Source: a virus. Taken from it: a stretch of 64,000 bases of DNA. The notes below the pieces were generated by a model. That model saw only the letters and a program-made list of their open reading frames with translations. It ran no database searches and had not been told where the DNA came from. This document shows, piece after piece, positions 47,047 to 60,665 of this stretch. Numbering within the stretch: position 1 is the first letter of the stretch; each line of letters begins with the position of its first letter. The position numbers were made by a program, and so were the translations under genes. The stretch spans positions 62,001 to 126,000 of IMG/VR virus record IMGVR_UViG_3300042453_005404. The stretch is one strand, 5' to 3'.

Positions 47047-48117
47047 ATGAAGATCGGAATCGAAATCGAGTTCTACAGTCCCAAAAACATCACCGACACC
47101 ATTGCGGCTCTTCGTCGCAAGGTTCGTGGTCTTTCTATTGGTAGCTACGGTAGCTCTGGTTGGAAGATCGTGAGTGATGGTTCTCTTGCAACCATCGATA
47201 GCTTTCACGGCATGGAGCTTGTGTCTCCTGTGCTTGATACCGACAAGGCTGCTAACCTGCGCATGGTTCGCAAGGTGTGCGCTGCGTTGCAAGCTATGGG
47301 TAGCACGGTGAATAACTGCTGCGGTCTGCATGTTCATGTGGATGGTACCGATCTGTCGGTTGAGCAGATTAAGACGATTTTTCATCGCTATACCAAGTTT
47401 GAGGGTATGATCGATCTCATGGTTCCTGCTAATCGGCGTGGTACTAACGTGTACTATACCAAGGGTGGTACCAACATCATCAACAATGTGGAAAACTGTC
47501 AAACCATGAACGCTCTTATGCGTGTGCTGCCTGATCGTTACTACAAGGTGAACCTGTGTGCTCTGGGTCGTCATGGCACGATTGAGTTTCGGCAACACTC
47601 TGGGTCGATCAATGCGGATACCATTCTTAACTGGGTTGAGTTTCTTACTTCGTTTGTCGAAGCTTCCAAGATCACTCCTGCGGCTCCGCAACGTGCTCTT
47701 CGTGGTCGTCCGGCTTCTGGTACGGGCATGGCTGCTGGTTGCCGCAAGGTTTACGATGTGTTCATGGCTTCATACAACAACGGTGGTGGTACCTTGTACC
47801 TTGCCACGATTGCTAACCGTACCGGTCTTGCCATTAACAGCGTAAAGGTTGCAATCTCGACTCTTAAGACCAAGCACGGGATTGTGATTAAGAAGACTGC
47901 TGGACAGCAGCGTGGTGCTACCAACCCGATGTACACGATTGCAAACCCTCATGCGCAGCCTCGTTTGAATCCTGTGCGTTCTACTCGTAGCACTGCCAGT
48001 GCTCCCGCTACTCCTACTGACACGATTTGGCGTGGTGTTAGCAAGACTCTCAAGGCTTACTACGTCGAGCGCATTCAAGAGCTTTCGGGCTTCGGTGTTC
48101 AGAACGTTTCGCTGTGA
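47047..48117 (+). CDS. amidoligase-family enzyme fused to a winged-helix-like domain
   Basis: 356 residues. MKIGIEIEFYSP, GWKIVSDGSL, GMELVSPVLD, CCGLHVHVDG, KVNLCALGRHGTIEFRQHSG are the ordered motifs of the amidoligase_2 (glutamine-synthetase-like COOH-NH2 ligase) family, predicted to join amino groups to carboxylates with ATP. Residues about 225-300 (YDVFMASYNN, TLYLATIANRTGLAINSVKV, AISTLKTKHGIVIKK) look like a winged helix-turn-helix, unusual for this family. Higher GC than the genome. The stop overlaps the next ORF. Confidence 0.75.
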   Translation: MKIGIEIEFYSPKNITDTIAALRRKVRGLSIGSYGSSGWKIVSDGSLATIDSFHGMELVSPVLDTDKAANLRMVRKVCAALQAMGSTVNNCCGLHVHVDGTDLSVEQIKTIFHRYTKFEGMIDLMVPANRRGTNVYYTKGGTNIINNVENCQTMNALMRVLPDRYYKVNLCALGRHGTIEFRQHSGSINADTILNWVEFLTSFVEASKITPAAPQRALRGRPASGTGMAAGCRKVYDVFMASYNNGGGTLYLATIANRTGLAINSVKVAISTLKTKHGIVIKKTAGQQRGATNPMYTIANPHAQPRLNPVRSTRSTASAPATPTDTIWRGVSKTLKAYYVERIQELSGFGVQNVSL

Positions 48118-48449
48118 TGGTTGATGAAATGAACAATCTGCAACTTGGCAAAATGTATTTGGTTAAAGAGCTTTTCTGGCTTCTTTATCCAACGAAAGGT
48201 CTGGCAGGAGGGGCTGCGGACGGCTTCGGGGGGCATGGTTGGCGGTTGAAGAAGCTGACGACTGCTTATGAAACTGCAAAATGGGAGAGCGAAAGTTTCA
48301 ACTGCAATGTTGATGTTGTTGAAGAAAACACTTGCTTTGTTTTGCTTGAAGTAGACAACGGTTATTTCAAACTTCTTAACTCAAACGGTAACATTGGTTG
48401 GACTTGGGGTAGGGATTTCTTCGAGCATTTCGAACTTGTCAAGGAATAA
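48117..48449 (+). CDS. variable-loop SH3-like family, type A member 1
   Basis: 110 residues from the ATG overlapping the previous stop (TGATG); the ATG at 48129 matches other members and may be the real start. Core: LQLGKMYLVKELFWLLYPTK, then the variable loop (GGAADGFGGHGWRLKKLTTA), then FNCNVDVVEENTCFVLLEVD, FKLLNSNGNIGW, FELVKE. The flanks are near-identical in DNA to the other copies, while the loop DNA (about 48204-48276) is GC-rich and unrelated. The product is probably a compact beta barrel with a projecting loop. Function unknown. Confidence 0.65.
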   Translation: MVDEMNNLQLGKMYLVKELFWLLYPTKGLAGGAADGFGGHGWRLKKLTTAYETAKWESESFNCNVDVVEENTCFVLLEVDNGYFKLLNSNGNIGWTWGRDFFEHFELVKE

Positions 48450-48452
48450 GCA

Positions 48453-48767
48453 ATGAACAATCTGCAACTTGGTAAGATGTATTTGGTTAAAGAGTTTTTC
48501 TGGTTTCTTTTTCCAACAAAAGAACTAGCGGAGCGCCAGTGCAGGTGGTCGAGGGCGGGGGCCTCGACATCGGGGGCGACGGGGGTGGCAAAAGTGTTAA
48601 GCCAAAATTTTAAATGCAACATTTTTGTTGTTGAACCAAAGACTTGCTTTGTTTTGCTTGAAGTAGATGATGATTATTACAAGCTTCTTGACTCAAATGG
48701 TAACATTGGTTGGATTTTTAGTTGGGATTTCTCTGGTTGTTTCGAACTTGTAAAGGATTTATGTTGA
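48453..48767 (+). CDS. variable-loop SH3-like family, type A member 2
   Basis: 104 residues; AAGGA of the previous gene's last codons acts as its Shine-Dalgarno. Variable loop ERQCRWSRAGASTSGATGVA (DNA 48529-48588, runs of G). Conserved SQNFKCNIFVVEPKTCFVLL and YYKLLDSNGNIGW. The C-terminus ends VKDLC rather than VKE because a promoter cassette (48764) replaces the usual AAGGAATAA junction. Confidence 0.65.
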   Translation: MNNLQLGKMYLVKEFFWFLFPTKELAERQCRWSRAGASTSGATGVAKVLSQNFKCNIFVVEPKTCFVLLEVDDDYYKLLDSNGNIGWIFSWDFSGCFELVKDLC

Positions 48768-48822
48768 GAATATTTTCAGAGTATGATATACTTTTGATAT
48801 GCTACAAATCGGTAAGATGTAT
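48741..48822 (+). repeat. 82-base direct repeat carrying a promoter, copy 1
   Basis: Matches 49408-49489 with one mismatch. It contains the last codons of one gene, the TTGAGA/TATACT promoter and the first eight codons of the next gene. Confidence 0.85.
48764..48798 (+). promoter_or_regulatory. leaderless promoter for type A member 3
   Basis: TTGAGA (48764-48769), 17 bases ending TGA, TATACT (48787-48792), six bases, ATG at 48799. Confidence 0.7.
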
Positions 48823-49116
48823 TTGGTTAAAGAGTATTTCTGGTTTCTTTTTCCAACAAAAGAACTGGCGGTGGGGGCGATCGATCGCTTCGAGGGGCGG
48901 GCGTCGCAGGGCTGGGCGGCGACGGGGGCGGTGGTGGCAAAAGTGTTAAGCGAACGTTATAAATGCAACATTTTTGTTGTTGAACCAAAGACTTGCGTTG
49001 TTTTGCTTGAAATGGATGAAACCGAACATTGCTATAAGCTTCTTGATTGTAATGGAAACATTGGTTGGACTCGTTGTTGGAGTTTCGCCTCCTATTTCGA
49101 GCTTGTAAAGGAATAA
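48799..49116 (+). CDS. variable-loop SH3-like family, type A member 3
   Basis: 105 residues, leaderless start (MLQIGKMYLVKEYFWFLFPT). Variable loop VGAIDRFEGRASQGWAATGA followed by VVA (DNA 48868-48938, very G-rich). Conserved KVLSERYKCNIFVVEPKTCV and CYKLLDCNGNIGW. The only type A copy that directly follows a promoter, so it may set transcription of the downstream copies. Confidence 0.65.
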   Translation: MLQIGKMYLVKEYFWFLFPTKELAVGAIDRFEGRASQGWAATGAVVAKVLSERYKCNIFVVEPKTCVVLLEMDETEHCYKLLDCNGNIGWTRCWSFASYFELVKE

Positions 49117-49122
49117 GCAACA

Positions 49123-49434
49123 ATGCAACTTGGTAAGATGTATTTGGTTAAAGATTGGTTTTGGTTTCTTTATCCAACAAAAGAACTGGCAAGGACGCCT
49201 GCGGCGAAGGCGAGCAGGGCGATGCGGCCCACGAGGGCGAGGGCGGGGATGGATGCGAAATGGTTGAGCCAAGAATTTAAATGCAACGTTGGTGTTGTTG
49301 AACCAAACACTTGCGTTGTGTTGCTTGAAGTAGATAATGGTTATTTTAAGCTTCTTGATTCGAATGGTAACATTGGTTGGATTATTTGTTGGAATGTCTC
49401 CAAAAATTTCGAACTTGTAAGGGATTTATGTTGA
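49123..49434 (+). CDS. variable-loop SH3-like family, type A member 4
   Basis: 103 residues; SD AAGGA from the end of the previous gene. Variable loop RTPAAKASRAMRPTRARAGM followed by DA (DNA 49189-49257). Strongly basic loop, unlike members 1 and 3. The C-terminus is VRDLC, altered by the second promoter cassette (49431). Confidence 0.65.
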   Translation: MQLGKMYLVKDWFWFLYPTKELARTPAAKASRAMRPTRARAGMDAKWLSQEFKCNVGVVEPNTCVVLLEVDNGYFKLLDSNGNIGWIICWNVSKNFELVRDLC

Positions 49435-49489
49435 GAATATTTTCAGAGTATGATATACTTTTGATATGCTACAAATCGGTAAGATGTAT
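49408..49489 (+). repeat. 82-base direct repeat carrying a promoter, copy 2
   Basis: Partner of 48741-48822 (one mismatch, AAAGG versus AAGGG). Here it drives a divergent family member. Confidence 0.85.
49431..49465 (+). promoter_or_regulatory. leaderless promoter for gene 49466
   Basis: TTGAGA (49431-49436), 17 bases ending TGA, TATACT (49454-49459), six bases, ATG at 49466; identical to the promoter at 48764. Confidence 0.7.
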
Positions 49490-49711
49490 AAAGTTCCGTG
49501 GTATGTTGAAGCTGACGAGTACATAGCTGGACGACTGATTGAGCGAATCAAACTAAAAGATGGCGATCTTGTTGTTGTTGTTAGCATGGAAGAATACCGT
49601 ATGGGCGGGGAGATTCGTTGGGACACAAAACTGCTGACAGGTGACGGAAGACTTGTATACGTTTCGATATCGCAACCGGGGTCTGCATACTGGAAAAAAG
49701 CACATGAATAG
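49466..49711 (+). CDS. SH3-like superfamily member (divergent, no GC-rich loop)
   Basis: 81 residues. LQIGKMYKVPWYVEADEYIA, then GDLVVVVSMEEYR, KLLTGDGRLVYV and YWKKAHE follow the family order, but the PTKE segment and GC-rich insert are absent. Its first eight codons are identical to type A member 3 through the shared 82-base repeat, a sign of gene conversion or cassette exchange. Confidence 0.6.
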   Translation: MLQIGKMYKVPWYVEADEYIAGRLIERIKLKDGDLVVVVSMEEYRMGGEIRWDTKLLTGDGRLVYVSISQPGSAYWKKAHE

Positions 49712-50003
49712 AAATCTTCAAATCGGAAAGCTGTATAAAACACCTTGGAAGACTTCTTCTTACGGAGCTTACATCAAGTTTGATGATCATGGCATGGTGC
49801 CTGACTACAACAGAAGCATCGACCTTCCAGATGGCGCATATGTTGTTTTGCTTGAAGTTAACGTGAATAAAGCTGAATATTTCTATAACAATAGAAAAGC
49901 CAACACATACGTTCTTAAGGTTCTAACAGAGGATGGTGCTGTTGCATATGTTACGTGCACAGAAGCTGGTTTGGATTACTGGAAAAAGGTTGTTCGTCCA
50001 TAA
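49704..50003 (+). CDS. SH3-like superfamily member (divergent)
   Basis: 99 residues from the ATG at 49704, which overlaps the previous stop by eight bases and gives the family start NLQIGKLYKTPWKT. YVVLLEVNVNK, VLKVLTEDGAVAYV and YWKKV complete the pattern. Closest to the preceding gene (both keep GKxYKxPW and a terminal YWKK). The loop is ordinary AT-rich sequence. Confidence 0.55.
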   Translation: MNRNLQIGKLYKTPWKTSSYGAYIKFDDHGMVPDYNRSIDLPDGAYVVLLEVNVNKAEYFYNNRKANTYVLKVLTEDGAVAYVTCTEAGLDYWKKVVRP

Positions 50004-50017
50004 AACTTAGTTAATCC

Positions 50018-50052
50018 TTTAGATATTCATATTCTTATGGTATTCTATATAT
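50018..50052 (+). promoter_or_regulatory. leaderless promoter for the HNH gene
   Basis: TTTAGA (50018-50023), 17 bases ending TGG, TATTCT (50041-50046), six bases, ATG at 50053. Confidence 0.75.
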
Positions 50053-50427
50053 ATGAAGCAGAAGAAGGCTGTTGTTCGTCGCAAAGGTTCGGTTTCCAGC
50101 AAAGTCAAACAACTGGATTGGATCATGCAGTTTATCATTCGCATGAATCCTTGTGCGATTTGTGGTGGTTCCTTGGCTGATGGGTACAATCCTCGTTATC
50201 CGGGTAAAAGCATCACGCTGCATCATTCCATCGGAAGCCGTGAAGTTGACGATTGGGAGAATCTGGAGTATGTAGCTGGTATGGTGCTGTGTCATTCTAC
50301 ATGCCACAAGAGCTATCATTTGAAGCGCAGACACATGGATGCGGGCAAGGATGTAAACGAGGGCGAGGTTGCGATCATGGAAAGCAATATTGCCAAGGTT
50401 GTGAAGAAGCAGAGGAAAGTAAAATGA
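50053..50427 (+). CDS. HNH-type endonuclease-like protein
   Basis: 124 residues, basic N-terminus (KQKKAVVRRKGSVSSKVKQL). PCAICGGSL supplies one Cys pair, ITLHHSIG the catalytic His pair, and MVLCHSTCHKSYHLKRRH the second Cys pair and HNH-like end: a zinc-stabilised HNH/HHH fold. It may cut DNA during host takeover or act as a homing nuclease. Leaderless promoter. Its stop overlaps the next ATG. Confidence 0.65.
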   Translation: MKQKKAVVRRKGSVSSKVKQLDWIMQFIIRMNPCAICGGSLADGYNPRYPGKSITLHHSIGSREVDDWENLEYVAGMVLCHSTCHKSYHLKRRHMDAGKDVNEGEVAIMESNIAKVVKKQRKVK

Positions 50428-50642
50428 ATCACACGATTGGAAAAATGCATCAGTTTGTAGCCGTTCAACTACCGATTTATAATAGGATCGGAGACGTTCC
50501 GTTTGCTTACTTGGTACAGAATGAAGTTGTTGTTTTTCTTTCGAAAACAGATAAATACGTAAAGGTACTATTTGACGATGGCACCGTTGGAATAGTGCCT
50601 TATTTTCCAGAACGTGATCATTGGGTTGAATACACCGGTTAG
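50424..50642 (+). CDS. SH3-like superfamily member (divergent, short)
   Basis: 72 residues from the ATG overlapping the HNH stop (ATGA). HTIGKMHQFVAVQ, then NEVVVFLSKTDKYVKVLFDD, GTVGIVPYF and WVEYTG show the minimal family core with almost no loop. Useful as a picture of the ancestral domain. Confidence 0.55.
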   Translation: MNHTIGKMHQFVAVQLPIYNRIGDVPFAYLVQNEVVVFLSKTDKYVKVLFDDGTVGIVPYFPERDHWVEYTG

Positions 50643-50656
50643 GAGAACGTAAAACA

Positions 50657-50986
50657 ATGTCCGAATATATTGAATCCGAGACAAACTGTTGGAACAAATC
50701 ACCAATGAAACAAGGTAAACTGTATTACGGGCTTTGTGATCGAGAGGTGATCGAAGAAAAGCTTTTACCTCATTTTTTTGATGCTCATGAGATCAATGAT
50801 GTGATTGAGGTAGTAGACGCAGCATCACCGGTTGTATTCTTGGAAAAGACAATCACAAGGCGAGAGGATGGATACGGTGGTAGAGAAAGGTATCAAACCT
50901 TTATAAAGATTCTTACACCTGCTGGAAATATTGGTTGGGTTGTTTGGTTTGAAGGCGATTGGAAGGAAGTAAAATCATGTCAATAA
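50657..50986 (+). CDS. SH3-like superfamily member (divergent)
   Basis: 109 residues; SD AGGAG about ten bases before the ATG. After a 16-residue extension: MKQGKLYYGLCD, a charged loop, then PVVFLEKTITRR, FIKILTPAGNIGWVVWFEGD and WKEVK. The loop is long but AT-rich and acidic, not GC-rich. The end carries the SD of the next gene. Confidence 0.55.
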   Translation: MSEYIESETNCWNKSPMKQGKLYYGLCDREVIEEKLLPHFFDAHEINDVIEVVDAASPVVFLEKTITRREDGYGGRERYQTFIKILTPAGNIGWVVWFEGDWKEVKSCQ

Positions 50987-51321
50987 CATTCTACGATCAG
51001 AACAATCCAGCAAAGTACAACGATGATGGAGATCAAATCGGTGGTGGTATCGAAGTAAACTTCGCAAACGGCAACGCATACACTGTGCTTTCTCTCATGG
51101 GTTTGTGCGGCAAAGATAATCCCGATCTTTGTGGAGAAATGAACGGTCACGACTTTCGTAAATGCGCATATCGTGCGTTAGCAACGTTGGATATGATAAA
51201 TGATGAAAGTCGATTTAACGTTGATCCCATCGATGTAGCACAACATTGGGGATACGCAAAAGAACGAATCAAACGGCTTTTAACGGTTTTTGCCGACGCT
51301 GAAACTGTTTGTTGGGGGTAA
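50977..51321 (+). CDS. hypothetical protein
   Basis: 114 residues from the ATG at 50977, preceded by AAGGAAG. SITFYDQNNPAKYNDDGDQI, GGGIEVNFANGNAYTVLSLM, then Cys-containing GLCGKDNPDLCGEM and a helical C-terminus (RALATLDMINDESRF). It resembles short phage early proteins of unknown role. Confidence 0.6.
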   Translation: MSITFYDQNNPAKYNDDGDQIGGGIEVNFANGNAYTVLSLMGLCGKDNPDLCGEMNGHDFRKCAYRALATLDMINDESRFNVDPIDVAQHWGYAKERIKRLLTVFADAETVCWG

Positions 51322-51323
51322 AG

Positions 51324-51486
51324 GTGGCATACTTTACCATAGGTAAACTGTATCAAAACGTTACAAAAAACGAAGCTTCTTGCTGATGATGGCACAGTTT
51401 ATCAGGCAGCGATTTTGAAAAACACACGTTACATACAAATCTGGTTTAAACCCGTTTCGTCATTTTCGGACATAGTTAAGTTATGA
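51324..51486 (+). pseudogene. broken member of the SH3-like superfamily
   Basis: A GTG at 51324 opens AYFTIGKLYQNVTKNEASC, which stops at TGA 51384-51386. From about 51371 another frame reads KLLADDGTVYQAAILKNTRY and ends at TGA 51484-51486, resembling the family's C-terminal KxLxxDGxV strand. The two halves of a family member are thus present in different frames with the middle (VVxLE) missing, best explained by a deletion with frameshift. Confidence 0.5.
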
Positions 51487-51828
51487 ATGATAAAAATATT
51501 GACAGGTGCCGAGCTAGTTCCCGGCAAAATGTATACTATTTGGGGGCGTTTGAATCGTGATACGTGGCCCGCATATCATCAACGACCAACTCTTCAATCA
51601 CCATCAACTGTTGCAACTGTTGCTCCATTGTTTCCATTGGAGCCATTTGTGTTTTTAGAACGCACGCCAAGTGAGTTTAGATGGAATGAAACCGATCCAA
51701 TGTATGACTACAAAATATTGACTTGTGACGGCGTTGTGGGCTGGCTATGCTTTCATGACGATGATTTGTCTGCTTTGGGTATTGGTTTTCGTGAATATGA
51801 TCCAAAAGACTTTGAAGTAAACCTTTAA
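51487..51828 (+). CDS. SH3-like superfamily member (divergent, Pro/Thr-rich loop)
   Basis: 113 residues, starting directly after the stop of the broken copy. ELVPGKMYTIWGRLNRDTWP, a loop of Pro, Ser and Thr (HQRPTLQSPSTVATVAPL), EPFVFLERT, YKILTCDGVVGWLCF and FEVNL. Same core order. The loop sits where type A and B members carry the GC-rich insert. Confidence 0.6.
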   Translation: MIKILTGAELVPGKMYTIWGRLNRDTWPAYHQRPTLQSPSTVATVAPLFPLEPFVFLERTPSEFRWNETDPMYDYKILTCDGVVGWLCFHDDDLSALGIGFREYDPKDFEVNL

Positions 51829-51852
51829 ATCGTAGCAACAACTTGATATACT
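51824..51852 (+). promoter_or_regulatory. promoter of the same class with a ten- to sixteen-base leader
   Basis: TTTAAA (51824-51829), 17 bases ending TGA, TATACT (51847-51852). The next ATG (51869) is 17 bases past the -10, so this transcript would have a short leader without a clear Shine-Dalgarno. Confidence 0.5.
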
Positions 51853-51868
51853 AAAACTAGTTAAACCT

Positions 51869-51979
51869 ATGAGCATTCAAAGCATAATTTCTGCCACAGT
51901 GTTTGCAAGTGTTTTCTTTTTGTGGATATTCACTTGTCCAATGATAACACACAAAAAGTGTTGCTGTTGTAAAAACTAA
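51869..51979 (+). CDS. 36-residue membrane micro-protein with Cys cluster
   Basis: ATG 51869, stop 51977-51979. A hydrophobic span (IISATVFASVFFLWIFTCPM) is followed by ITHKKCCCCKN, four consecutive Cys at the cytoplasmic tail. One of several hydrophobic micro-ORFs in this region. It lies just downstream of a promoter. Confidence 0.45.
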   Translation: MSIQSIISATVFASVFFLWIFTCPMITHKKCCCCKN

Positions 51980-51995
51980 CAAAAGGAAGCAAATC

Positions 51996-52193
51996 GTGCG
52001 TAACTATGAAAAACAAAAAGATCTTGTTAATGCCAATCTTGTTGAAGGTGAGTTGATCAACTACAAAAACAAAGTTTGCAGAGTTTCTATATCCCGTGGT
52101 GGCCCTTTAGACAAACCAAAAGTAAGTGTTGTTTTAACTCCTATGCCTCAAATCACAATCACAGAAGACACAGAAATCATTGTTTCTACATAA
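51996..52193 (+). CDS. small hypothetical protein (GTG start)
   Basis: 65 residues from GTG, with SD AAGGAAG at ideal spacing. EGELINYKNKVCRVSISRGG, KVSVVLTPMPQ, ITEDTEIIVS: an all-beta small domain, probably a barrel. No family recognised. Confidence 0.55.
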   Translation: MRNYEKQKDLVNANLVEGELINYKNKVCRVSISRGGPLDKPKVSVVLTPMPQITITEDTEIIVST

Positions 52194-52199
52194 ACGTTT

Positions 52200-52289
52200 A
52201 TGACTTTCCGCCATGAGCTTTATGTTGTTTTTTGGATTGTTGTTGTTTTGTACGCATATGCGTTAGGTTTCGCACTCGCAAAATGCTAA
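52200..52289 (+). CDS. 29-residue membrane micro-protein candidate
   Basis: ATG 52200, stop 52287-52289. Nearly all hydrophobic (LYVVFWIVVVLYAYALGFAL). No good Shine-Dalgarno. Support is the membrane pattern and the lack of any other gene between 52194 and 52364. Confidence 0.35.
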   Translation: MTFRHELYVVFWIVVVLYAYALGFALAKC

Positions 52290-52328
52290 TATGCCTTGAT
52301 TACAAGCACAAACAAAAAATAAAATACC

Positions 52329-52363
52329 TTTAGATGTTCATGAACATATGATATTCTATATGC
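52329..52363 (+). promoter_or_regulatory. leaderless promoter for the RNA ligase gene
   Basis: TTTAGA (52329-52334), 17 bases ending TGA, TATTCT (52352-52357), six bases, ATG at 52364. The spacer contains the perfect 12-base palindrome TGTTCATGAACA (52335-52346). Confidence 0.75.
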
Positions 52364-53503
52364 ATGATGAACGTTCACCCGGCTCTTCGTTTCTCGTTTG
52401 ACCATCTTCGCACGGCTCTTATGACCCGTGTGGATTCTGGTGCAATCAACATCACTCGCAAGGGTTCTCTGGCCCTTTTCAACTATTCCAAGGATTGTCA
52501 GTTTGAGCATCTTTGGGATGATTATACCATCATGGCCCGTGGTCTTATTCTCGACATGGAGAATGAGTCTATTGTGGCTCTTCCTTTTCCCAAGTTCTTC
52601 AATGCGTCGGAGAAGGAGGGTGCTAGTGTTGTCAAGTTTGATGCTCCCTTTGATGCGTATACCAAGATGGACGGATCGCTGGGTATCGTGTATTTCCACA
52701 ATGGTTCATGGCACGTTGCAACCCGTGGTTCGTTTACGTCCGAACAGTCTGTGTGGGCAGAGAAGTGGCTGCACGATAACCTCAAGCCTTATCACCAGCT
52801 TGATCAGAATGTGACATATCTTTGTGAGATTATCTATGACAGCAACCGTATTGTTATCAACTACCCTTTTGAGGGTTTGGTGATGCTTGGTGCTTATAAC
52901 CGTGTTACCGGCATTGAGCTTGACTATGATCGTGATTTGCGTCCGTTGTGTGAGCGTATCGGTATGATGCTTGCAGAGCGTCACCAGTTCACTTCATTTG
53001 TTGCTGCACAGGAGTTTGTCAAGACTCTTCCCGGCAACGAGGAAGGTTTCGTTATTCGTTTTCGGGATTCTGGCGAGCGTGTAAAGCTCAAGGGTTCTGA
53101 ATATTGCTCTTTGCACAAGATGATTAGCAACATTACTCCTTTGGCTATCTGGGAGCTTTTGTGTGCGGGTTACTCCATTGAAGATTACAAGAAGGCTTTG
53201 CCGGAAGAGTTTTGGGATGAGGTTGACGAGATTGTTGGTCATTTCCAGCGTCGTGCTGCTTGTGTTATGCTGGATGTTGTGAACCTTTATTCCGAGGTTT
53301 CTGATTTGTCTGACAAGGATCTTGGTTTGAAGCTGGCTGGCGAGTTCAAGCGTCGTGAGAATGCTTCGTTGCTGTTCCCTTATCGTAAGAAGGGAACGGC
53401 TTTGGTTCACGGTTTGGTGATGAAGTCTTTGCGGCCTACTGGAAACGTGATTGAGGGATATGTGCCGTCTGCCATGCTCCAGCGTTCTCAGTCGGAGGAA
53501 TGA
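52364..53503 (+). CDS. T4 Rnl1-like RNA ligase
   Basis: 379 residues, near the length of T4 RNA ligase 1. ARGLILDMENESIVALPFPK, then FFNASE, precedes motif I YTKMDGSLGIVYF (adenylated Lys 101; Lys 99 in T4 Rnl1). CEIIYDSNRIVINYP is motif IIIa, EEGFVIRF motif IV and RVKLKGSEY motif V; a helical Rnl1-type C-terminal domain follows. In T4 this enzyme with Pnk repairs tRNA cut by host anticodon nucleases. Leaderless promoter. Higher GC than neighbours. The end supplies the GGAGG for the next gene. Confidence 0.85.
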   Translation: MMNVHPALRFSFDHLRTALMTRVDSGAINITRKGSLALFNYSKDCQFEHLWDDYTIMARGLILDMENESIVALPFPKFFNASEKEGASVVKFDAPFDAYTKMDGSLGIVYFHNGSWHVATRGSFTSEQSVWAEKWLHDNLKPYHQLDQNVTYLCEIIYDSNRIVINYPFEGLVMLGAYNRVTGIELDYDRDLRPLCERIGMMLAERHQFTSFVAAQEFVKTLPGNEEGFVIRFRDSGERVKLKGSEYCSLHKMISNITPLAIWELLCAGYSIEDYKKALPEEFWDEVDEIVGHFQRRAACVMLDVVNLYSEVSDLSDKDLGLKLAGEFKRRENASLLFPYRKKGTALVHGLVMKSLRPTGNVIEGYVPSAMLQRSQSEE

Positions 53504-53505
53504 TC

Positions 53506-53811: not shown

Positions 53812-53817
53812 GCAACA

Positions 53818-54138: not shown

Positions 54139-54144
54139 GCAACA

Positions 54145-54447: not shown

Positions 54448-54453
54448 GCAACA

Positions 54454-54750
54454 ATGCAACTTGGTAAGATGTATCGTTTTACAGAAAGAGCAAAACGAGC
54501 TTGCATAAGGTATGCAATCAAAAACCGTTGGCCTCTCACGTTCTCTTCCGAGGTTAGTCTCGCAAAAGGTCGAGTGCGGGCGCAATATCCATTGGATTCA
54601 TGCATTGTTGTGTTAGAGTCTCACGAAACAACAACTTCTGGAAAGCTTTTGTCTGGTAAAACATCACGCAGACTTAAGGTTTTACTTCCTGATGGTAAGA
54701 TTGGTACGATGTATGTGGATACAACAGAATGGGAACAGGTAACTGAATGA
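54454..54750 (+). CDS. SH3-like superfamily member (type A-derived, loop without GC insert)
   Basis: 98 residues. The first 30 bases (MQLGKMY codons) and leader are identical to type A copies, after which the protein diverges (RFTERAKRACIRYAIKNRWP), then CIVVLESHETT, LKVLLPDGKIGTMYV and WEQVTE. A hybrid made of a type A 5' end joined to a divergent body suggests recombination within the family. Confidence 0.6.
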   Translation: MQLGKMYRFTERAKRACIRYAIKNRWPLTFSSEVSLAKGRVRAQYPLDSCIVVLESHETTTSGKLLSGKTSRRLKVLLPDGKIGTMYVDTTEWEQVTE

Positions 54751-54818
54751 TTATGGTACTTTGCTTTGCTGCTAGCCTTTGTTTGGCGATTTGCTCACGA
54801 AAGCAAATCGTTCGATGA
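54747..54818 (+). CDS. 23-residue hydrophobic micro-protein candidate
   Basis: ATG overlaps the previous stop (ATGA at 54747) and the TGA overlaps the next ATG (54815). The peptide is IMVLCFAASLCLAICSRKQI plus VR: a short membrane-like segment with Cys and a basic end. The double overlap favours translation. Confidence 0.4.
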   Translation: MIMVLCFAASLCLAICSRKQIVR

Positions 54819-54994
54819 AAACCATTAAACTACCAGAAACCATTGAACGTTCAACAGTGCTACTTGTTTTTGGCTTAATCGTGTTTTCTGGCATGATCGG
54901 TTTTGCTTTTGGTGCTGATGCCGGTTATGCCAAAGGATTCCAAGATGGTTCACAAAGCCGCACTGTTTCTCCCATACCTCTTCAAATGCCCTAA
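54815..54994 (+). CDS. small membrane protein
   Basis: 59 residues from the ATG at 54815, in the ATGA overlap. After KTIKLPETIERS a single membrane span (VLLVFGLIVFSGMIGFAFGA) is followed by AGYAKGFQDGSQSRT, a Gly-rich motif also seen in small phage holin-like or inner-membrane proteins. Too short and with only one span to call a holin. Confidence 0.5.
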   Translation: MKTIKLPETIERSTVLLVFGLIVFSGMIGFAFGADAGYAKGFQDGSQSRTVSPIPLQMP

Positions 54995-55021
54995 AATCCA
55001 GCGGTTTAAGAAAAAGCAATA

Positions 55022-55047
55022 ATACGTTTAGATATTCGTGAACGTAT
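55022..55047. repeat. inverted repeat over a leaderless promoter
   Basis: ATACGTT (55022-55028) and AACGTAT (55041-55047) are perfect inverted copies 12 bases apart, covering the -35 and the spacer of the promoter at 55027. A repressor operator is possible. Confidence 0.4.
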
Positions 55048-55061
55048 GCTATTCTAAAAGC
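55027..55061 (+). promoter_or_regulatory. leaderless promoter for gene 55062
   Basis: TTTAGA (55027-55032), 17 bases ending TGC, TATTCT (55050-55055), six bases, ATG at 55062. Confidence 0.75.
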
Positions 55062-55256
55062 ATGAAGAACAACACGGTTTCTGCTCGTCGTCTCGCTCGT
55101 TCGATGGAGTCTAGCGTCAAGCTTATCGCTCGCAAGTTTGCACGCTTGAACGAAGCACAGCGTCTTCGTGCAATGCAGATTATTGCGAACATGGATGATC
55201 TTAGGTCGTTTGAGTCCATCGTTCGTAACTCGTTTGTGTGCAACACGGAGCTCTGA
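55062..55256 (+). CDS. small basic helical protein
   Basis: 64 residues. The start is fixed by the leaderless promoter. Basic, helical (VSARRLARSMESSVKLIARK, FARLNEAQRLRAMQIIANMD), which could bind nucleic acid. No known family. The next gene follows after three bases. Confidence 0.55.
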   Translation: MKNNTVSARRLARSMESSVKLIARKFARLNEAQRLRAMQIIANMDDLRSFESIVRNSFVCNTEL

Positions 55257-55259
55257 AAC

Positions 55260-55466
55260 ATGGGATACGTAAAAGACATGGTGCTTCACAAGCAAGAAGA
55301 GCTTGCTGGTGAGATTCACGAAGATGCTTTTCTCGCTTATCTGGAAGAGATGGAGCAGATTCAAAACAATCACATTCTGGCAGATCATGTGATTCTTAGC
55401 AATGGCAAGCGTTGCTATATTCAAGCGAACTGTTATCCTGCTGACGGTGTGTGTGAGTGCAAGTAA
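55260..55466 (+). CDS. small acidic hypothetical protein
   Basis: 68 residues. Acidic helix (EELAGEIHEDAFLAYLEEME) followed by a Cys-rich end (KRCYIQANCYPADGVCECK) that might bind metal. The stop overlaps the next ATG (TAATG). Function unknown. Confidence 0.55.
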   Translation: MGYVKDMVLHKQEELAGEIHEDAFLAYLEEMEQIQNNHILADHVILSNGKRCYIQANCYPADGVCECK

Positions 55467-55741
55467 TGCAACTCGGTAAGATGCATTTGGTTAAAGAGTG
55501 GTTTTGGTTTCTTTATCCAACAAAAGAAAAGACGTGGCGCTCGGGGCCAGCGGCGAGGGCGGATAATGCAAAATTGTTAAGCGAACATGTCCAATGCAAC
55601 GTTTTTGTTGTTGAACCAAACACTTGTGTTGTTTTGCTTGAAGTAGATAATGGTTATTTTAAGCTTCTTGATTCAAACGGAAACATTGGTTGGATTCGTT
55701 GTTGGAGTTTCGCCTCCTATTTCGAGCTTGTAAAGGAATAA
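55466..55741 (+). CDS. variable-loop SH3-like family, type A member 8 (shortest loop)
   Basis: 91 residues from the ATG overlapping the previous stop. Variable loop only about 13 residues (TWRSGPAARADNA; DNA 55530-55568). Flanks KLLSEHVQCNVFVVEPNTCV and FKLLDSNGNIGWIRCW. It shows that loop length varies by whole codons. Confidence 0.65.
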   Translation: MQLGKMHLVKEWFWFLYPTKEKTWRSGPAARADNAKLLSEHVQCNVFVVEPNTCVVLLEVDNGYFKLLDSNGNIGWIRCWSFASYFELVKE

Positions 55742-55747
55742 GCAACA

Positions 55748-56047
55748 ATGCAACTTGGTAAGATGTATTTGGTTAAAGATTGGTTTTGGTTTCTTTATCC
55801 AACAAAAGAACTGGCGATGCGTGGGCGGAGCTCGGGGGAGGGGGCGATGACGCTGGCGAACGGGCGGCTGGGCGCAGAATGGTTGAGCCAAGAATTTAAA
55901 TGCAACGTTGGTGTTGTTGAACCAAACACTTGCTTTGTCTTGCTTGAAGTAGATGAAGTATATTTCAAGGTTCTTGATTGTAATGGAAACATTGGTTGGA
56001 CTTATTGCTTTGATTTCTCTGGTTATTTCGAACTTGTAAAGGAATAA
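55748..56047 (+). CDS. variable-loop SH3-like family, type A member 9
   Basis: 99 residues. Variable loop MRGRSSGEGAMTLANGRLGA (DNA 55814-55876). The following EWLSQEFKCNVGVVEPNTCF is shared with members 4 and 11, so right flanks fall into at least two sequence types (KVLSERYKCN and xWLSQxFKCN) that occur with either left flank. Confidence 0.65.
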   Translation: MQLGKMYLVKDWFWFLYPTKELAMRGRSSGEGAMTLANGRLGAEWLSQEFKCNVGVVEPNTCFVLLEVDEVYFKVLDCNGNIGWTYCFDFSGYFELVKE

Positions 56048-56051
56048 AGCA

Positions 56052-56351
56052 ATGAACGATCTTCAACTCGGTAAGATGTATTTGGTTAAAGAGTGGTTTT
56101 GGTTTCTTTATCCAACAAAAGAACTGGCGGCGGGGTTCTCGTCGCCGTCGAGGGCGGAGTGGTGGTGTAATGCAAAAGTGTTAAGCGAACGTTATAAATG
56201 CAACGTTTTTGTTGTTGAACCAAACACTTGCGTTGTTTTGCTTGAAGTAGATAATGGTTATTTTAAGCTTCTTGATTCAAACGGTAACATTGGTTGGATA
56301 TGGTGTAGGTGTTTGGCTTTTTCCAAGCATTTCGAACTTGTCAAGGAATAA
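56052..56351 (+). CDS. variable-loop SH3-like family, type A member 10
   Basis: 99 residues (NDLQLGKMYLVKEWFWFLYP). Variable loop AGFSSPSRAEWWCNA (DNA 56127-56173). Right flank KVLSERYKCNVFVVEPNTCV; end IGWIWCRCLAFSKHFELVKE, nearly the same end as member 6. Confidence 0.65.
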   Translation: MNDLQLGKMYLVKEWFWFLYPTKELAAGFSSPSRAEWWCNAKVLSERYKCNVFVVEPNTCVVLLEVDNGYFKLLDSNGNIGWIWCRCLAFSKHFELVKE

Positions 56352-56355
56352 AGCA

Positions 56356-56688
56356 ATGCAACTTGGTAAGATGTATTTGGTTAAAGAGTATTGTTGGTTT
56401 CTTTATCCAACAAAAGAACTGGCCTCGACGACGGGGCCACGGTGGTCGAGCGTGAGGCGGTGGCCCTCCGACGAGGAGCGCACGGTGGCTTATCGAGATG
56501 CAAAATGGTTGAGCCAAGCATTTAAATGCAACGTTGGTGTTGTTGAACCAAAAACTAGTTTTGTCTTGCTTGAACAAGACAAGGATCATTTCAAGGTTCT
56601 TGATTCAAACGGAAACATTGGTTGGATTCGTAGCGATGATTTTTCGAAAAATTTCAAGGTTTTGAATGAAAAGAAGAATAACCTTTAG
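56356..56688 (+). CDS. variable-loop SH3-like family, type A member 11
   Basis: 110 residues from the ATG at 56356, the family start; an open frame extends upstream only through the previous copy. Variable loop STTGPRWSSVRRWPSDEERT then VAYRDA (DNA 56423-56500), Trp- and Arg-rich. Right flank KWLSQAFKCNVGVVEPKTSF. The C-terminus has drifted (FKVLNEKKNNL) and its last codons overlap the -35 of the next promoter. Confidence 0.65.
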   Translation: MQLGKMYLVKEYCWFLYPTKELASTTGPRWSSVRRWPSDEERTVAYRDAKWLSQAFKCNVGVVEPKTSFVLLEQDKDHFKVLDSNGNIGWIRSDDFSKNFKVLNEKKNNL

Positions 56689-56718
56689 ATATGTCAAATA
56701 TTTTGGTATTATAGAAGT
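56684..56718 (+). promoter_or_regulatory. leaderless promoter for the phosphoesterase gene
   Basis: TTTAGA (56684-56689), 17 bases ending TGG, TATTAT (56707-56712), six bases, ATG at 56719. Confidence 0.75.
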
Positions 56719-57477
56719 ATGAAGCGAACGATTGTAATCGGTGATGTACATGGTTGCCTTGCAGAGCTCAAGGAGCTTGTTGACGAGGTTGGATATGTTC
56801 GTGGTGAGGATCGATTGATTCTTGCTGGTGATCTTGTGGATCGTGGTGTAGATTCTGCTGGAGTTGTTCGTTATGCAATGAAGATTGGTGCCGAGGCTGT
56901 TTGCGGCAATCATGACAACAAGCTTTTGCGTCGTTCCAAGCACCTTGCACGGCAGCGTAGCAATCCCGCATACGTCAACCCGATGAAGCCTTGCGAAGAC
57001 CAAGAAAACACTCTTGCGAGTCTTGGTGATGCAGAGTTGGCGTGGCTTGGATCTTTGCCTTATCATATCAAGCTTGACGAGTTTAACGCTGTTGTGGCTC
57101 ATGCTGGCATTGTTCCCGGTGTTCCTCTTGTTCGTCAACGTGATGAAGCGTTTATGATGGTTCGTTACGTTGATAAGGATAACGGCAAGATGAAGCATAT
57201 GGTTATGCCGGGATATCTTCGTCCAGAAAACAGTGATTACTGGGCAGATAAGTTTGACAGCAGCTTTGATGTTATCTTTGGCCACAACGTTGTTGGATTG
57301 AAGGATATCAAGGTTTGGGAAAACACTAACGGTGGTCGTTGCTTTGGTATCGATACTGGTTGTGTGTTTGGAGGACGCTTGAGCGCCCTTGTTATGCAAG
57401 CTCGCAGCAAGCCTTATGAGGTTATTCAAGTACAAGCACACAAGCAACACTGCGTTTCTGATCTATTTTCAGAGTGA
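56719..57477 (+). CDS. calcineurin-like metallophosphoesterase
   Basis: 252 residues. VIGDVHGCLAEL (D9, H11), LAGDLVDRG (D38), CGNHDNK (N64-H65-D66) and VVAHAGI (H128), plus a later GHNVV, are the complete metal-binding set of PPP/ApaH/Pnkp-type phosphatases. The substrate may be phosphoprotein, Ap4A or RNA 2',3'-phosphate. Bacterial Pnkp joins such a domain to a kinase and a ligase, and this phage encodes those two activities in separate genes nearby, so a role in RNA end healing is a reasonable inference. Leaderless promoter. Confidence 0.8.
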   Translation: MKRTIVIGDVHGCLAELKELVDEVGYVRGEDRLILAGDLVDRGVDSAGVVRYAMKIGAEAVCGNHDNKLLRRSKHLARQRSNPAYVNPMKPCEDQENTLASLGDAELAWLGSLPYHIKLDEFNAVVAHAGIVPGVPLVRQRDEAFMMVRYVDKDNGKMKHMVMPGYLRPENSDYWADKFDSSFDVIFGHNVVGLKDIKVWENTNGGRCFGIDTGCVFGGRLSALVMQARSKPYEVIQVQAHKQHCVSDLFSE

Positions 57478-57489
57478 AAAGAGCATAAT

Positions 57490-57687
57490 ATGGAAAACAA
57501 ACATAAGCACTTTACAGTATTCAACAATCGATGGTTTATGCTGTTTCGAGAGCAAGCAGGAGTGATTAGCGAAAGCCCTTGTTGGGTTTTGTTTTACGAC
57601 TGTTATTCGCATTACAACGAATCTTTGATCAAGCTTTTGATTGAAGCTGCAAGAGAATACAAAAGCGATAGACACCTAGCAATGTAA
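57490..57687 (+). CDS. small hypothetical protein
   Basis: 65 residues. Aromatic-rich N-terminus (HKHFTVFNNRWFMLFREQAG) and a helical C-terminus (ESLIKLLIEAAREYKSDRHL). Weak ribosome binding site (AAAAGAG). No family recognised. Confidence 0.5.
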   Translation: MENKHKHFTVFNNRWFMLFREQAGVISESPCWVLFYDCYSHYNESLIKLLIEAAREYKSDRHLAM

Positions 57688-57694
57688 GTCAAAA

Positions 57695-57883
57695 ATGAAC
57701 AACGACGAAAAGCAAAAACTTATCGACGATTTCGAAAAAGCTATTAGCGAGATTCGTGTGTTGCGTTACACTTCTCCAGATGAAGAGCTAAAAGGTCTTA
57801 GAGTTCATTTGTTTGAGAATGAATGGGATAGGTTGGAGCACACTATTAGAGAACTAAGAAAGAATGAAACCGAAGAAAGGTAA
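57695..57883 (+). CDS. small charged helical protein
   Basis: 62 residues. Two amphipathic helices (DEKQKLIDDFEKAISEIRVL; WDRLEHTIRELRKNETEER) that could form a coiled coil. Overlaps the next gene by 20 bases. Confidence 0.5.
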   Translation: MNNDEKQKLIDDFEKAISEIRVLRYTSPDEELKGLRVHLFENEWDRLEHTIRELRKNETEER

Positions 57884-58148
57884 GCTTTACACACTAGAGC
57901 TTAAATGGAACACAGATCCTGCGAATATCAGATCTGTTGCTGTATGGAATCGCAGACTTGATGTTGGTGACTTTATGGATAAATCATTAGTGATAGGCAG
58001 AATCGAATACAACAAAGATATGTTTATCTTTTTGGAAGATGGAACAAACGGATTTAGCCAAAAGAGTCCAAAGATTTTGACCAGCGATGGAGTTGTTGGG
58101 TATATTGTGCCAAACTATGATATCTGTTCGATGAAACGGGTTAAGTAG
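57864..58148 (+). CDS. SH3-like superfamily member (divergent)
   Basis: 94 residues; purine-rich leader. KKGKLYTLELKWN, then DMFIFLEDGTNGF, PKILTSDGVVGYIVPNYD and MKRVK follow the family order. The loop is an AT-rich, polar segment of about 35 residues. It is separate from the arrays and has no PTKE segment. Confidence 0.55.
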   Translation: MKPKKGKLYTLELKWNTDPANIRSVAVWNRRLDVGDFMDKSLVIGRIEYNKDMFIFLEDGTNGFSQKSPKILTSDGVVGYIVPNYDICSMKRVK

Positions 58149-58161
58149 AAAGAAGACGACT

Positions 58162-58467
58162 ATGAGCGAACGTTATCAGATTATAATCAAGGCTGGGGAG
58201 CATACTTTTCATTTCAAAACCAAGACAAGGGTTGGGGAGTTTTGGAACTTCTCAGAGGAGATGAAGGAGCATATTGATTGGGAGCAGATGGCTATTGGAT
58301 TGGACAAAAAGACCAAGGAAGTTTTGGACTCTGTGAGTTGTCCTAAGTGTAAGTCTAGCACACAGGAAACATTTATGGAGGGTCAGTATCTTGTTCCTTC
58401 TAGTGACAGGGATGCTATTATCAAGGCTTGCACTAAATGTCAGTGGTCTAGGTTGGAGCGACTATGA
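58162..58467 (+). CDS. zinc-ribbon hypothetical protein
   Basis: 101 residues; SD AGAAAGAAG. The N-terminal half is mixed (ERYQIIIKAGEHTFHFKTKT); the C-terminal half has SCPKCKSSTQ and ACTKCQWSRLE, two C-x2-C pairs about 30 residues apart. A nucleic-acid-binding ribbon is possible. The stop overlaps the next ATG (ATGA). Confidence 0.6.
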   Translation: MSERYQIIIKAGEHTFHFKTKTRVGEFWNFSEEMKEHIDWEQMAIGLDKKTKEVLDSVSCPKCKSSTQETFMEGQYLVPSSDRDAIIKACTKCQWSRLERL

Positions 58468-58643
58468 GTGATATAAAGTTTCCAGTTGTATCAAAAGAAA
58501 TTATTGACAAAGTTTTTACTTCTGATGATGGATGGACTACTGTATATGAGGGTCCAACCATCGTAAGCAGTGCAAGTATTATGCCACAGATTTATGTGCC
58601 GCTTCAAGTTTCTCATATATTCAAGAAGGAAGATAAAGAATGA
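58464..58643 (+). CDS. small hypothetical protein (59 residues)
   Basis: ATG 58464 in an ATGA overlap with the zinc-ribbon gene; TGA 58641-58643 overlaps the next ATG (58640). Sequence starts SDIKFPVVSKEIIDKVFTSD and ends HIFKKEDKE. The two overlaps and in-frame length make it a credible gene. Confidence 0.55.
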   Translation: MSDIKFPVVSKEIIDKVFTSDDGWTTVYEGPTIVSSASIMPQIYVPLQVSHIFKKEDKE

Positions 58644-58891
58644 AACGCTATTATGCCAAGGCTGACACATGGTTCAAGGAAGGAACGGAAGCGTTTAGAG
58701 AAGAAGAGATGTTTCCTTATGGTAGTTTGACTGATGGTGAAACTGGAGAGAAAACGGGCTCAGCGATTTATCGTGGGATTTACGTTATTGGATCTGGTGG
58801 CAGCTATCTTGATAAATCATACAAAGAAGGGGAAGAAGTTGAGATGCGAGAACATTGCTCGGACGATGAGTTTCTTGTGGTAGAGGAATAG
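58640..58891 (+). CDS. small acidic hypothetical protein
   Basis: 83 residues; SD AGGAAG. KRYYAKADTWFKEGTEAFRE, then GSAIYRGIYVIGSGGSYLDK and an acidic C-terminus (EEVEMREHCSDDEFLVVEE). Beta-rich, possibly a small barrel. No family recognised. Confidence 0.55.
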   Translation: MKRYYAKADTWFKEGTEAFREEEMFPYGSLTDGETGEKTGSAIYRGIYVIGSGGSYLDKSYKEGEEVEMREHCSDDEFLVVEE

Positions 58892-58894
58892 GTT

Positions 58895-59092
58895 ATGGGA
58901 ATAAATGGGGATACCAAGGATATTGGTTGGATTCAATGTAGCCAATGTGGGTGGGGTTGTGAAGTACATCGTTCAGAAGTTGAGATTGGGGATTATGTAG
59001 ATCGGCAATCATGTCCTGATTGTGGTCTTGGGCCATGTGAGATTGATTGGGATTATCCAGATGGTAAGGGTTGGGTAGCAGAAAAAGTTTGA
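58895..59092 (+). CDS. small zinc-ribbon protein
   Basis: 65 residues. IQCSQCGWGCEVHRSE and QSCPDCGLGPCEIDW give two C-x2-C knuckles about 25 residues apart: a classic short zinc ribbon. SD GAGG within the upstream stop. A third ribbon protein in this region (with 45567 and 58162). Confidence 0.6.
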   Translation: MGINGDTKDIGWIQCSQCGWGCEVHRSEVEIGDYVDRQSCPDCGLGPCEIDWDYPDGKGWVAEKV

Positions 59093-59117
59093 CTTATTGA
59101 TAATGGTATGATAGTTT
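59089..59117 (+). promoter_or_regulatory. promoter with a leader for gene 59143
   Basis: TTGACT (59089-59094), 17 bases ending TGA, TAGTTT (59112-59117). The ATG follows 25 bases later with SD AAGGAAA, so this one is not leaderless. Confidence 0.5.
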
Positions 59118-59142
59118 AAACCTATCGAAAGCAAAGGAAAAT

Positions 59143-59364
59143 ATGAAAGCAACGTTTAAGTCATTTGTCGAAGGCGAGAAGCGATTCATTGTAGTAGGTG
59201 AGCCTCATGTATATCAGAATGGATTCCTTGTCACTTGTATTGATACAAGCACTGGAGAAACCGAAAGCAAAACTATCGCAAGCTCTGAGAGACTTGATCT
59301 ATGTGAGTTCGAACTAAAATGCCTTGGTAAAGTTGTTTGGGAAAAGAAGCTTATCCCAGTATGA
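59143..59364 (+). CDS. small beta-rich hypothetical protein
   Basis: 73 residues; SD AAGGAAA. KATFKSFVEGEKRFIVVGEP, GFLVTCIDTSTGETESKTIA, FELKCLGKVVWEKKL: regular beta strands. Its stop overlaps the next ATG (59361). Unknown function. Confidence 0.55.
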   Translation: MKATFKSFVEGEKRFIVVGEPHVYQNGFLVTCIDTSTGETESKTIASSERLDLCEFELKCLGKVVWEKKLIPV

Positions 59365-59756
59365 CAGAGATAGAAGAAGAAAGAATGTGGCTCAAGTGTT
59401 TGGAGCTGGAACGAGAGAATAAACGTCTTCGTGAAATAATGAACATCGGATCGCTTTATACAGTGAAGAAGTATTTTTGGTTGCTTTTTCCAACAAAAGC
59501 CCTCACCGTGGGTGACGAACTGCACGCCGATGGCCACGGCCACGCCATCCCCTTCGCCGCCTTCGCCTCCATCGCCGCCGATTATTGGAGCAGACGATAC
59601 AACTGTGAAGTTACTTATTTTTGTCCTGATTCAATCGTTGTTTTCCTTGAAGAAGATGGAAATTACAAGAAAGTTCTGACTTCAGATGGAAAGATTGGTT
59701 GGATTTGGTTTGCTGAAGAATACTACAACGATTGCTTTGAGGAAGTAAATCCATGA
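59361..59756 (+). CDS. variable-loop SH3-like family, type B member 1 (with coiled-coil extension)
   Basis: 131 residues from the ATG in the ATGA overlap; the family start MNIGSLYTVKKYFWLLFPTK is at 59439 and may be used instead. The extra N-terminal 26 residues (TEIEEERMWLKCLELERENK, RLREI) form a coiled coil. Variable loop TVGDELHADGHGHAIPFAAF then ASIAA (DNA 59499-59580, C-rich). Right part YWSRRYNCEVTYFCPDSIVV, YKKVLTSDGKIGWIW, CFEEVNP. Confidence 0.6.
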   Translation: MTEIEEERMWLKCLELERENKRLREIMNIGSLYTVKKYFWLLFPTKALTVGDELHADGHGHAIPFAAFASIAADYWSRRYNCEVTYFCPDSIVVFLEEDGNYKKVLTSDGKIGWIWFAEEYYNDCFEEVNP

Positions 59757-60052
59757 ACATTGGAAGCCTTTATAGGGTTAAGAAGTTTTATTGGTTGCTT
59801 TTTCCAACAAAAGAAATCGCCGCTGTAGCAGAACACCCCGCCTCCTCCCCCAGCGCCGCCGCCCTCGCCGCCGCCAGCGCCTATTGGAGCGGCCAGCTGA
59901 ACTGTGAAGTAACTTGTTTTTCTCCTGATTCCATTATTGTATTTCTTGAAGAAGATGGGAAATACAAGAAGGTTCTGACTTCTGAAGGAAGAATCGGATG
60001 GACTTGGTTTATTGAATCATATAACGAATGCTTTGAGGAAGTAAATCCATGA
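59753..60052 (+). CDS. variable-loop SH3-like family, type B member 2
   Basis: 99 residues. Variable loop AVAEHPASSPSAAALAAAS (DNA 59818-59880). Conserved AYWSGQLNCEVTCFSPDSII, YKKVLTSEGRIGWTWF, CFEEVNP. The loop DNA contains CCGCCCTCGCCG, the reverse complement of a 12-base stretch in the type A loop at 55551-55562. Confidence 0.65.
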   Translation: MNIGSLYRVKKFYWLLFPTKEIAAVAEHPASSPSAAALAAASAYWSGQLNCEVTCFSPDSIIVFLEEDGKYKKVLTSEGRIGWTWFIESYNECFEEVNP

Positions 60053-60363
60053 ACATTGGATCGCTTTATACAGTGAAGAAGTATTTTTGGTTTCTTTTTT
60101 CAACAAAAGCCGTCGCCGCCGCCGCATCCGACCCACCGTCCACCGCCGCATCCGACGCACCGTCCGCCGCCGCCGCCGGAGAAGCCGCTGCTTATTTGAG
60201 CAGACGATACGACTGTGAAGTTACTTATTTTTCTCCTGATTCCATCGTTGTTTTCCTTGAAAATGATGGAAAACTCAAGAAAGTATTGACTTCTGATGGA
60301 AAGATTGGTTGGACTTGGTTTAGTGAAACCTATAACGAATGCTTTGAGGAAGTAAATCCATGA
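60049..60363 (+). CDS. variable-loop SH3-like family, type B member 3
   Basis: 104 residues. Variable loop AAASDPPSTAASDAPSAAAA then GEAA (DNA 60109-60190), with an internal near-duplication of the unit GCATCCGACsCACCGTCC, pointing to slippage. PTKA is replaced by STKA. Right part AYLSRRYDCEVTYFSPDSIV, LKKVLTSDGKIGWTW. Confidence 0.65.
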   Translation: MNIGSLYTVKKYFWFLFSTKAVAAAASDPPSTAASDAPSAAAAGEAAAYLSRRYDCEVTYFSPDSIVVFLENDGKLKKVLTSDGKIGWTWFSETYNECFEEVNP

Positions 60364-60665
60364 ACATTGGATCGCTTTATACAGTGAAGAAGTGGTCTTG
60401 GTCACTTTTTCCAACAAAGGAAACTGCCGCCGCCGCCGCCGCAAGCAGCCCCGCCGCCGCAGGAGCCGCTCCCGACGCCGCTCCCGCCGCTGATTATTGG
60501 AGCAAACAGTTAAACTGCAATGTAACCTACTTTTCTCCTGATTCCTATATTGTCTTCTTGGAAGAAGATACGAAGTTCAAGAAAGTTCTTACTTCTACTG
60601 GAAAGCTTGGTTGGGTTTGGTTTGATGAAAGTTATAATCATTGTTTTGAGGAAGTATCGTCGTGA
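60360..60665 (+). CDS. variable-loop SH3-like family, type B member 4
   Basis: 101 residues. Variable loop AAAAASSPAAAGAAPDAAPA (DNA 60421-60492), built largely of GCCGCC repeats. Right part DYWSKQLNCNVTYFSPDSYI, FKKVLTSTGKLGWVWF, CFEEVSS. The stop overlaps the GTG of the next family member. Confidence 0.65.
   Translation: MNIGSLYTVKKWSWSLFPTKETAAAAAASSPAAAGAAPDAAPAADYWSKQLNCNVTYFSPDSYIVFLEEDTKFKKVLTSTGKLGWVWFDESYNHCFEEVSS

Follow-up and report, generated by a model that had tools for sequence, protein, structure and literature searches.

How can a set of tandem paralogous genes keep conserved sequence on both sides of a stretch that cannot be aligned from one copy to the next? This question is raised by a 64,000-nucleotide window, positions 62001-126000 of the 260,466-base virus record IMGVR_UViG_3300042453_005404, which belongs to an undescribed large tailed phage and carries arrays of small genes of two subfamilies, type A and type B, encoding proteins of about 95-110 amino acids. 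A sequence-only reading of the window had listed 15 copies (11 A and 4 B) with a GC-rich insert at one fixed loop position; all 15 are present, and the loop coordinates given there are right to within a few bases. As a family of fifteen, however, this describes the window only, as a record-wide search found 22 clear copies, 18 of type A and 4 of type B, and a wider profile extended the family to 36 members, many of them without the GC-rich loop. The type A copies lie in groups of four at 49.6-50.8 kb of the genome, of four, three and four in the window, and of three at 130.2-131.2 kb.

We found that these paralogues share a conserved barrel on which one loop, always at the same place, is hypervariable from copy to copy, as the sequence-only reading had proposed. 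Conservation runs up to a P-T-K-E-L-A motif and resumes at A-K, and the bases in between are at chance level: aligned A-A loops show an identity of 0.776 vs 0.762 for shuffled loops, A loops have words in common at a rate equal or close to chance (within it for words of at least 8 bases), and no residue is common to the loops after alignment. The edges of the loop are sharp, such that within three codons base identity falls to chance and third-base GC rises from 0.06 to 0.94. Loop length ranges from 10 to 27 codons (39-81 bases in the window), with boundaries that were set by motif and changed slightly between tests; the whole-codon length differences that had been taken as evidence are forced by the open frames and are no evidence in themselves. 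Judged by a dN/dS of 0.27-0.66, the flanks are conserved under purifying selection, but "nearly identical", as they had been called, is too strong, with a mean A-A identity of only 0.83 for the 5′ flank and 0.75 for the 3′ flank and a difference of 0.21 at fourfold sites. The copies in the window are the following:

48114-48449, + strand: type A copy 1, loop 48204-48278; a GTG start is listed, the ATG at 48129 being more likely
48453-48767, + strand: type A copy 2, loop 48528-48590
48799-49116, + strand: type A copy 3, loop 48868-48939
49123-49434, + strand: type A copy 4, loop 49189-49257; AlphaFold2 mean pLDDT 92.9
53500-53811, + strand: type A copy 5, loop 53572-53640
53818-54138, + strand: type A copy 6, loop 53884-53961
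54145-54447, + strand: type A copy 7, loop 54211-54276
55457-55741, + strand: type A copy 8, loop 55532-55570, the shortest in the window
55748-56047, + strand: type A copy 9, loop 55814-55876
56052-56351, + strand: type A copy 10, loop 56127-56174
56356-56688, + strand: type A copy 11, loop 56422-56502
59439-59756, + strand: type B copy 1, loop 59505-59579, with NNC codons nearly throughout
59753-60052, + strand: type B copy 2, loop 59819-59878; its start overlaps the stop of copy 1
60049-60363, + strand: type B copy 3, loop 60115-60189, with a 24-base tandem duplication; AlphaFold2 mean pLDDT 91.0
60360-60665, + strand: type B copy 4, loop 60426-60491, with a GCC run still at its beginning

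The loops are as distinct in composition as in sequence. Their GC content is 0.722 (0.70, 0.70 and 0.77 at the three codon positions) vs 0.35 in the flanks, and 13 of the 16 GC islands of the window (48-base windows with GC of at least 0.66) are loops of this family. At fourfold third positions the flanks are rich in T (0.57) and A (0.25), with G at 0.10 and C at 0.09, whereas A loops prefer G (0.67, with C at 0.17), type B loops prefer C (0.74), and the B-type loops of three other phages likewise carry C (0.62). G exceeds C at position 3 in 16 of 18 A loops, and C exceeds G in all 16 B-type loops from four phages. Amino-acid composition, alanine content included, was rejected as the cause of the high GC by these third bases and by the genome-wide correlation between GC at positions 1-2 and at position 3, which is negative (r = −0.16; gene set from a simple open-frame call), while the loops are high at all three. 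Translational codon choice is also unlikely, because within one genome the same residue is encoded by GCG in A and by GCC in B. The bias thus acts at the level of DNA, and since the third bases lie far from the AT-rich equilibrium, the tracts must be young, renewed or selected. Outside the family, the clearest similar tracts are long GC-rich linkers of A, P, R and G with raised third-base GC in two unrelated proteins, at genome 173994-174186 (L015) and 258828-259032 (L019), for which no homologues were found in the related records searched.

A signature in silent positions that is confined to the array subfamilies could mean that the tract matters as DNA or RNA, as a breaker of homology between tandem copies or as an RNA element, with the peptide incidental. 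We consider this improbable, as A loops are G-rich and B loops C-rich in one genome and on one strand, with no single sequence or structure kept, and homology could be broken by divergent sequence of any kind, with no need for high GC.

Where the tract sits on the protein was addressed by AlphaFold2 models of one A copy and one B copy. In B numbering, the strands of the model span residues 6-9, 13-17, 58-61, 66-73, 76-81, 86-90 and 99-101, with a helical hairpin between the second and third of these, and pLDDT dips at the tip of the hairpin, where the variable tract lies (67 in B, over residues 31-40, and 80 in A). The predicted fold is an SH3-like barrel with a helical hairpin between the first strands and the variable tract at its tip, and from strand order the hairpin may sit at about the position of the RT (specificity) loop. 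The sequence-only reading had called for structure prediction to see whether the loop projects from a barrel; in the models the variable tract lies at the hairpin tip. The order of their strands agrees with a five-strand SH3 barrel. The best SH3 domain matches in Foldseek have probabilities of 0.9-1.0 but E values no better than 0.03, and Pfam SH3_3 gives weak matches in 5 of 44 members, the best at E 0.013, below the curated cut-off.

A fixed scaffold with one variable segment brings to mind a diversity-generating retroelement, and NNC codons are also typical of the variable regions of such elements. No reverse transcriptase (RVT_1, PF00078) was detected at E ≤ 1 in the 260-kb record, however, in a search for which control genomes were positive, and no template or donor was found, as the loops match the rest of the record no better than shuffled loops do; the sequence-only reading, which saw neither in the window, was right for the whole record. 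Loop length varies, and adenine makes up only about 0.2 of positions 1 and 2 in A loops, so that as far as the record goes a retroelement is rejected and its action on the loops is very improbable. Searches of the rest of the record for silent donor cassettes or copied segments likewise gave nothing above shuffled controls. Capture of GC-rich plasmid DNA was rejected, with weak scattered matches only (best E seen 0.008, with no shuffled control).

A dedicated process independent of retroelements, such as untemplated GC-biased addition at junctions or targeted mutagenesis, might instead rewrite the loop in array copies, as in antibody CDR3. The loops read like codons drawn at random with a single base favored in each subfamily, their edges are sharp and fixed, the two flanks have different histories (see below), the feature is limited to multi-copy subfamilies in four phages, and the G-rich and C-rich compositions of A and B are roughly complementary, all of which speaks for such a process. 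Yet neither non-homologous end-joining Ku nor polymerase X was found in the record, by tests that are weak, and neither an intermediate nor a near-identical pair that differs by a new loop is known; base-by-base addition would also not give the strong codon phase seen in B, with G at position 1 and C at 2 and 3. We regard this explanation as rather unlikely, and give the same low standing to its specific form, in which a phage-encoded process without reverse transcriptase repeatedly writes in-frame NNG or NNC tracts into one SH3-like loop in tandem arrays.

Related phages show how far the feature extends. B-like copies occur in three related records, G014 (122.9 kb), G010 (48.6 kb) and G001 (86.5 kb), where loops in the arrays share the high GC and the C-ending codons (less marked in one G014 copy) and account for most GC islands in the stretches examined near them; type A was found in one genome only. 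The GC-rich tract is kept in every array copy in four phages and is restricted to multi-copy array subfamilies, as four single-copy homologues, three in G014 and one at 126.7 kb of the window's own genome, carry inserts with ordinary AT-ending codons. Gene lists place the arrays of relatives at different loci, G014 having no A copies after its amidoligase gene and a B-like array in another region, which makes a copy-by-copy comparison of loops between relatives impossible. A 99.1% identical record (L021) is a 28.7-kb contig that stops short of the arrays. No near-identical array-bearing genome was found, including by an exact-pattern search of IMG/VR, and type A, B-like and tail-protein queries had no match in the phage collection, in scans that may leave out records very near the window's own. 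Ten matches to a 17-base pattern do not encode the family. The one bacterial match (L081 1-230, the start of a Halieaceae metagenome-assembled contig) is a B-like gene fragment that passes into bacterial sequence within the GC-rich loop and is probably an assembly chimera or phage contamination. In G010, a run of N at about 9.2-9.3 kb of L071 marks a scaffold gap inside a B-like array whose contig ends within a copy, both of which fit the expectation that such arrays assemble poorly. In G001, two B-like copies (L020) are surrounded by several pentapeptide-repeat genes that have long open frames on alternative frames. A literature search of partial coverage found no description of such a family.

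The argument that drift would not leave the flanks conserved and the loop random ignores recombination. The distance matrix for the 5′ flank shows no correlation with that for the 3′ flank (Mantel r 0.08, p 0.32), but those for adjacent segments within the 3′ flank do correlate (0.58, p 0.004), which suggests that copies probably recombine between paralogues, although the signal is modest because the 5′ flank is short. Since the two flanks differ in history, they can be homogenized while the loops keep old, independent histories. The tip may accordingly be a tolerated linker, with gene conversion keeping the flanks alike and old independent GC-codon tracts drifting without function, and in keeping with this the flanks recombine, loop amino acids fit independent codon positions, B tracts are altered almost equally at all three codon positions, and aligned loops have no residue in common. 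We find this possible but doubtful: old neutral tracts should have lost their bias, whereas fourfold GC is 0.84 in A loops vs 0.24 in genes; single-copy homologues carry the same insert in ordinary codons; and no array copy in the four phages has given up the tract.

The explanation we favor, at a probability of roughly 0.45, is an amplified scaffold family shaped by repeat-tract founding, remodeling and recombination between paralogues, with diversification of binding as the probable reason. Purifying selection keeps the small SH3-like scaffold, while copies would come and go and recombine across several arrays. The hairpin tip has a composition of its own, with NNG codons in A and NNC codons in B. 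Each subfamily would have been founded with a GCC- or GCG-type alanine-codon tract at this tip. Every copy would then have changed its tract separately, both in length and in sequence, with replacement positions affected more than silent ones, and the tracts would have been shuffled among the paralogues. The outcome would be many different surfaces on one scaffold, likely serving to bind, inhibit or decoy host factors.

The tracts most likely began as repeats, with better support for B than for A. B loops hold GCC runs and a 24-base tandem duplication and match GCC at 0.62, 0.65 and 0.74 by position, which is nearly equal, and B-like loops at 0.52, 0.50 and 0.68; A tracts match GCG at 0.50, 0.37 and 0.63 and contain no repeat runs. 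In every loop group, conservation is highest at the third position, so that if the founder was an alanine tract, change in the loop would be more often amino-acid-changing than silent. Neighboring codons one step apart give P 0.013 in B-type loops and P 0.63 in A, the former being marginal; as the same 22 loops went through many tests, P values of 0.01-0.1 are not to be relied on. Slippage duplication was rejected as the main source of the loops.

Several observations weigh against this explanation. Loop codons have three nearly independent positions and no stop codon, with small departures only (R up, G and P down), and because amino-acid frequencies are thus close to the expectation from independent codon positions, selection on the loop peptide cannot be seen directly. 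The surplus of change at the first two codon positions rests on the assumed alanine founder, and a simple (GCG)n founder fits A poorly, as A loops repeat adjacent codons no more than expected (P 0.45) and often have G at the second position (0.31). Internal duplications are nominally significant in 3 of 22 loops and not significant overall (Fisher P 0.12). The 5′ flank on which the recombination signal depends spans 57 columns, and no Foldseek match reaches E 0.001. Overall, the interpretation offered by the sequence-only reading is partly supported.

In their genomic setting, array copies are separated by a few bases or overlap by four, and an upstream AAGGA-like stretch is conserved at most A copies, from which we infer that the copies of an array probably form one operon, and all of them look like intact genes. 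Directly upstream of one A array is an amidoligase-like gene (47041-48117), and of another a gene for an RNA ligase / tail-fibre attachment catalyst (52364-53503); a DNA ligase and a NinI-like phosphatase were also recognized in the phage. An 1151-amino-acid protein encoded at 13668-17123 has relatives in 25 IMG/VR loci, but the phage collection yielded none. Across the array-bearing small-gene region at 48000-60000 of the window, GC skew takes strongly positive values, about 0.15-0.26 in 2-kb steps. The wider small SH3-like family (GKLY ... VVLE ... KVLTxxGxxGW), mostly single and diverged, fills small-gene regions of this phage and of G014 (window 49466-51828, 54454, 57864 and 60662; L009 4775-7655; L010 2149-3223; L068), and includes three distant members:

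54454-54750, + strand: SH3-like family member downstream of A copy 7, without the GC-rich loop
57864-58148, + strand: SH3-like family member without the GC-rich loop
60662-60925, + strand: SH3-like family member immediately downstream of the B array

What stands out is that, in four related phages and without a retroelement, one loop of a multiplied phage scaffold both defies alignment and has a codon composition of its own. Should the loops bind different host targets, the phages would carry natural libraries of binders built on an SH3-like scaffold, from which new inhibitors of bacterial defenses might be drawn; if the loops do not, they would exemplify how repeat-born tracts and recombination between paralogues mimic targeted diversification. 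Were a process that writes NNG or NNC tracts at work, the phage would hold a standing binder library comparable in kind to antibody CDR3 diversity.

Each of the known systems that these arrays recall is matched in part. With antigenic variation by gene conversion from silent cassettes they share many paralogues, conserved flanks and recombination between copies, but here there is no silent donor in the record and no copy looks defective. With diversity-generating retroelements they share a fixed scaffold, a variable segment resembling a binding site, and codons in which the third base is constant (NNC) and the first two vary, but they lack the reverse transcriptase, the template repeat and adenine-directed change, and their loops vary in length. 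The GCC runs and tandem duplication of the B loops are like alanine-codon (GCN) repeat tracts, from which the loops differ in being strongly diverged rather than pure repeats, with no repeat signature in A. Finally, the family resembles SH3 and SH3b domains (Pfam SH3_3) in its small barrel, its conserved G-x-L-Y first strand, its xVVLE strand and its KVLxxxGxxGW hairpin; unlike them it falls in no sequence family at the curated threshold, is free-standing and multiplied in one genome, and has, between its first strands, an inserted helical hairpin whose tip is variable.

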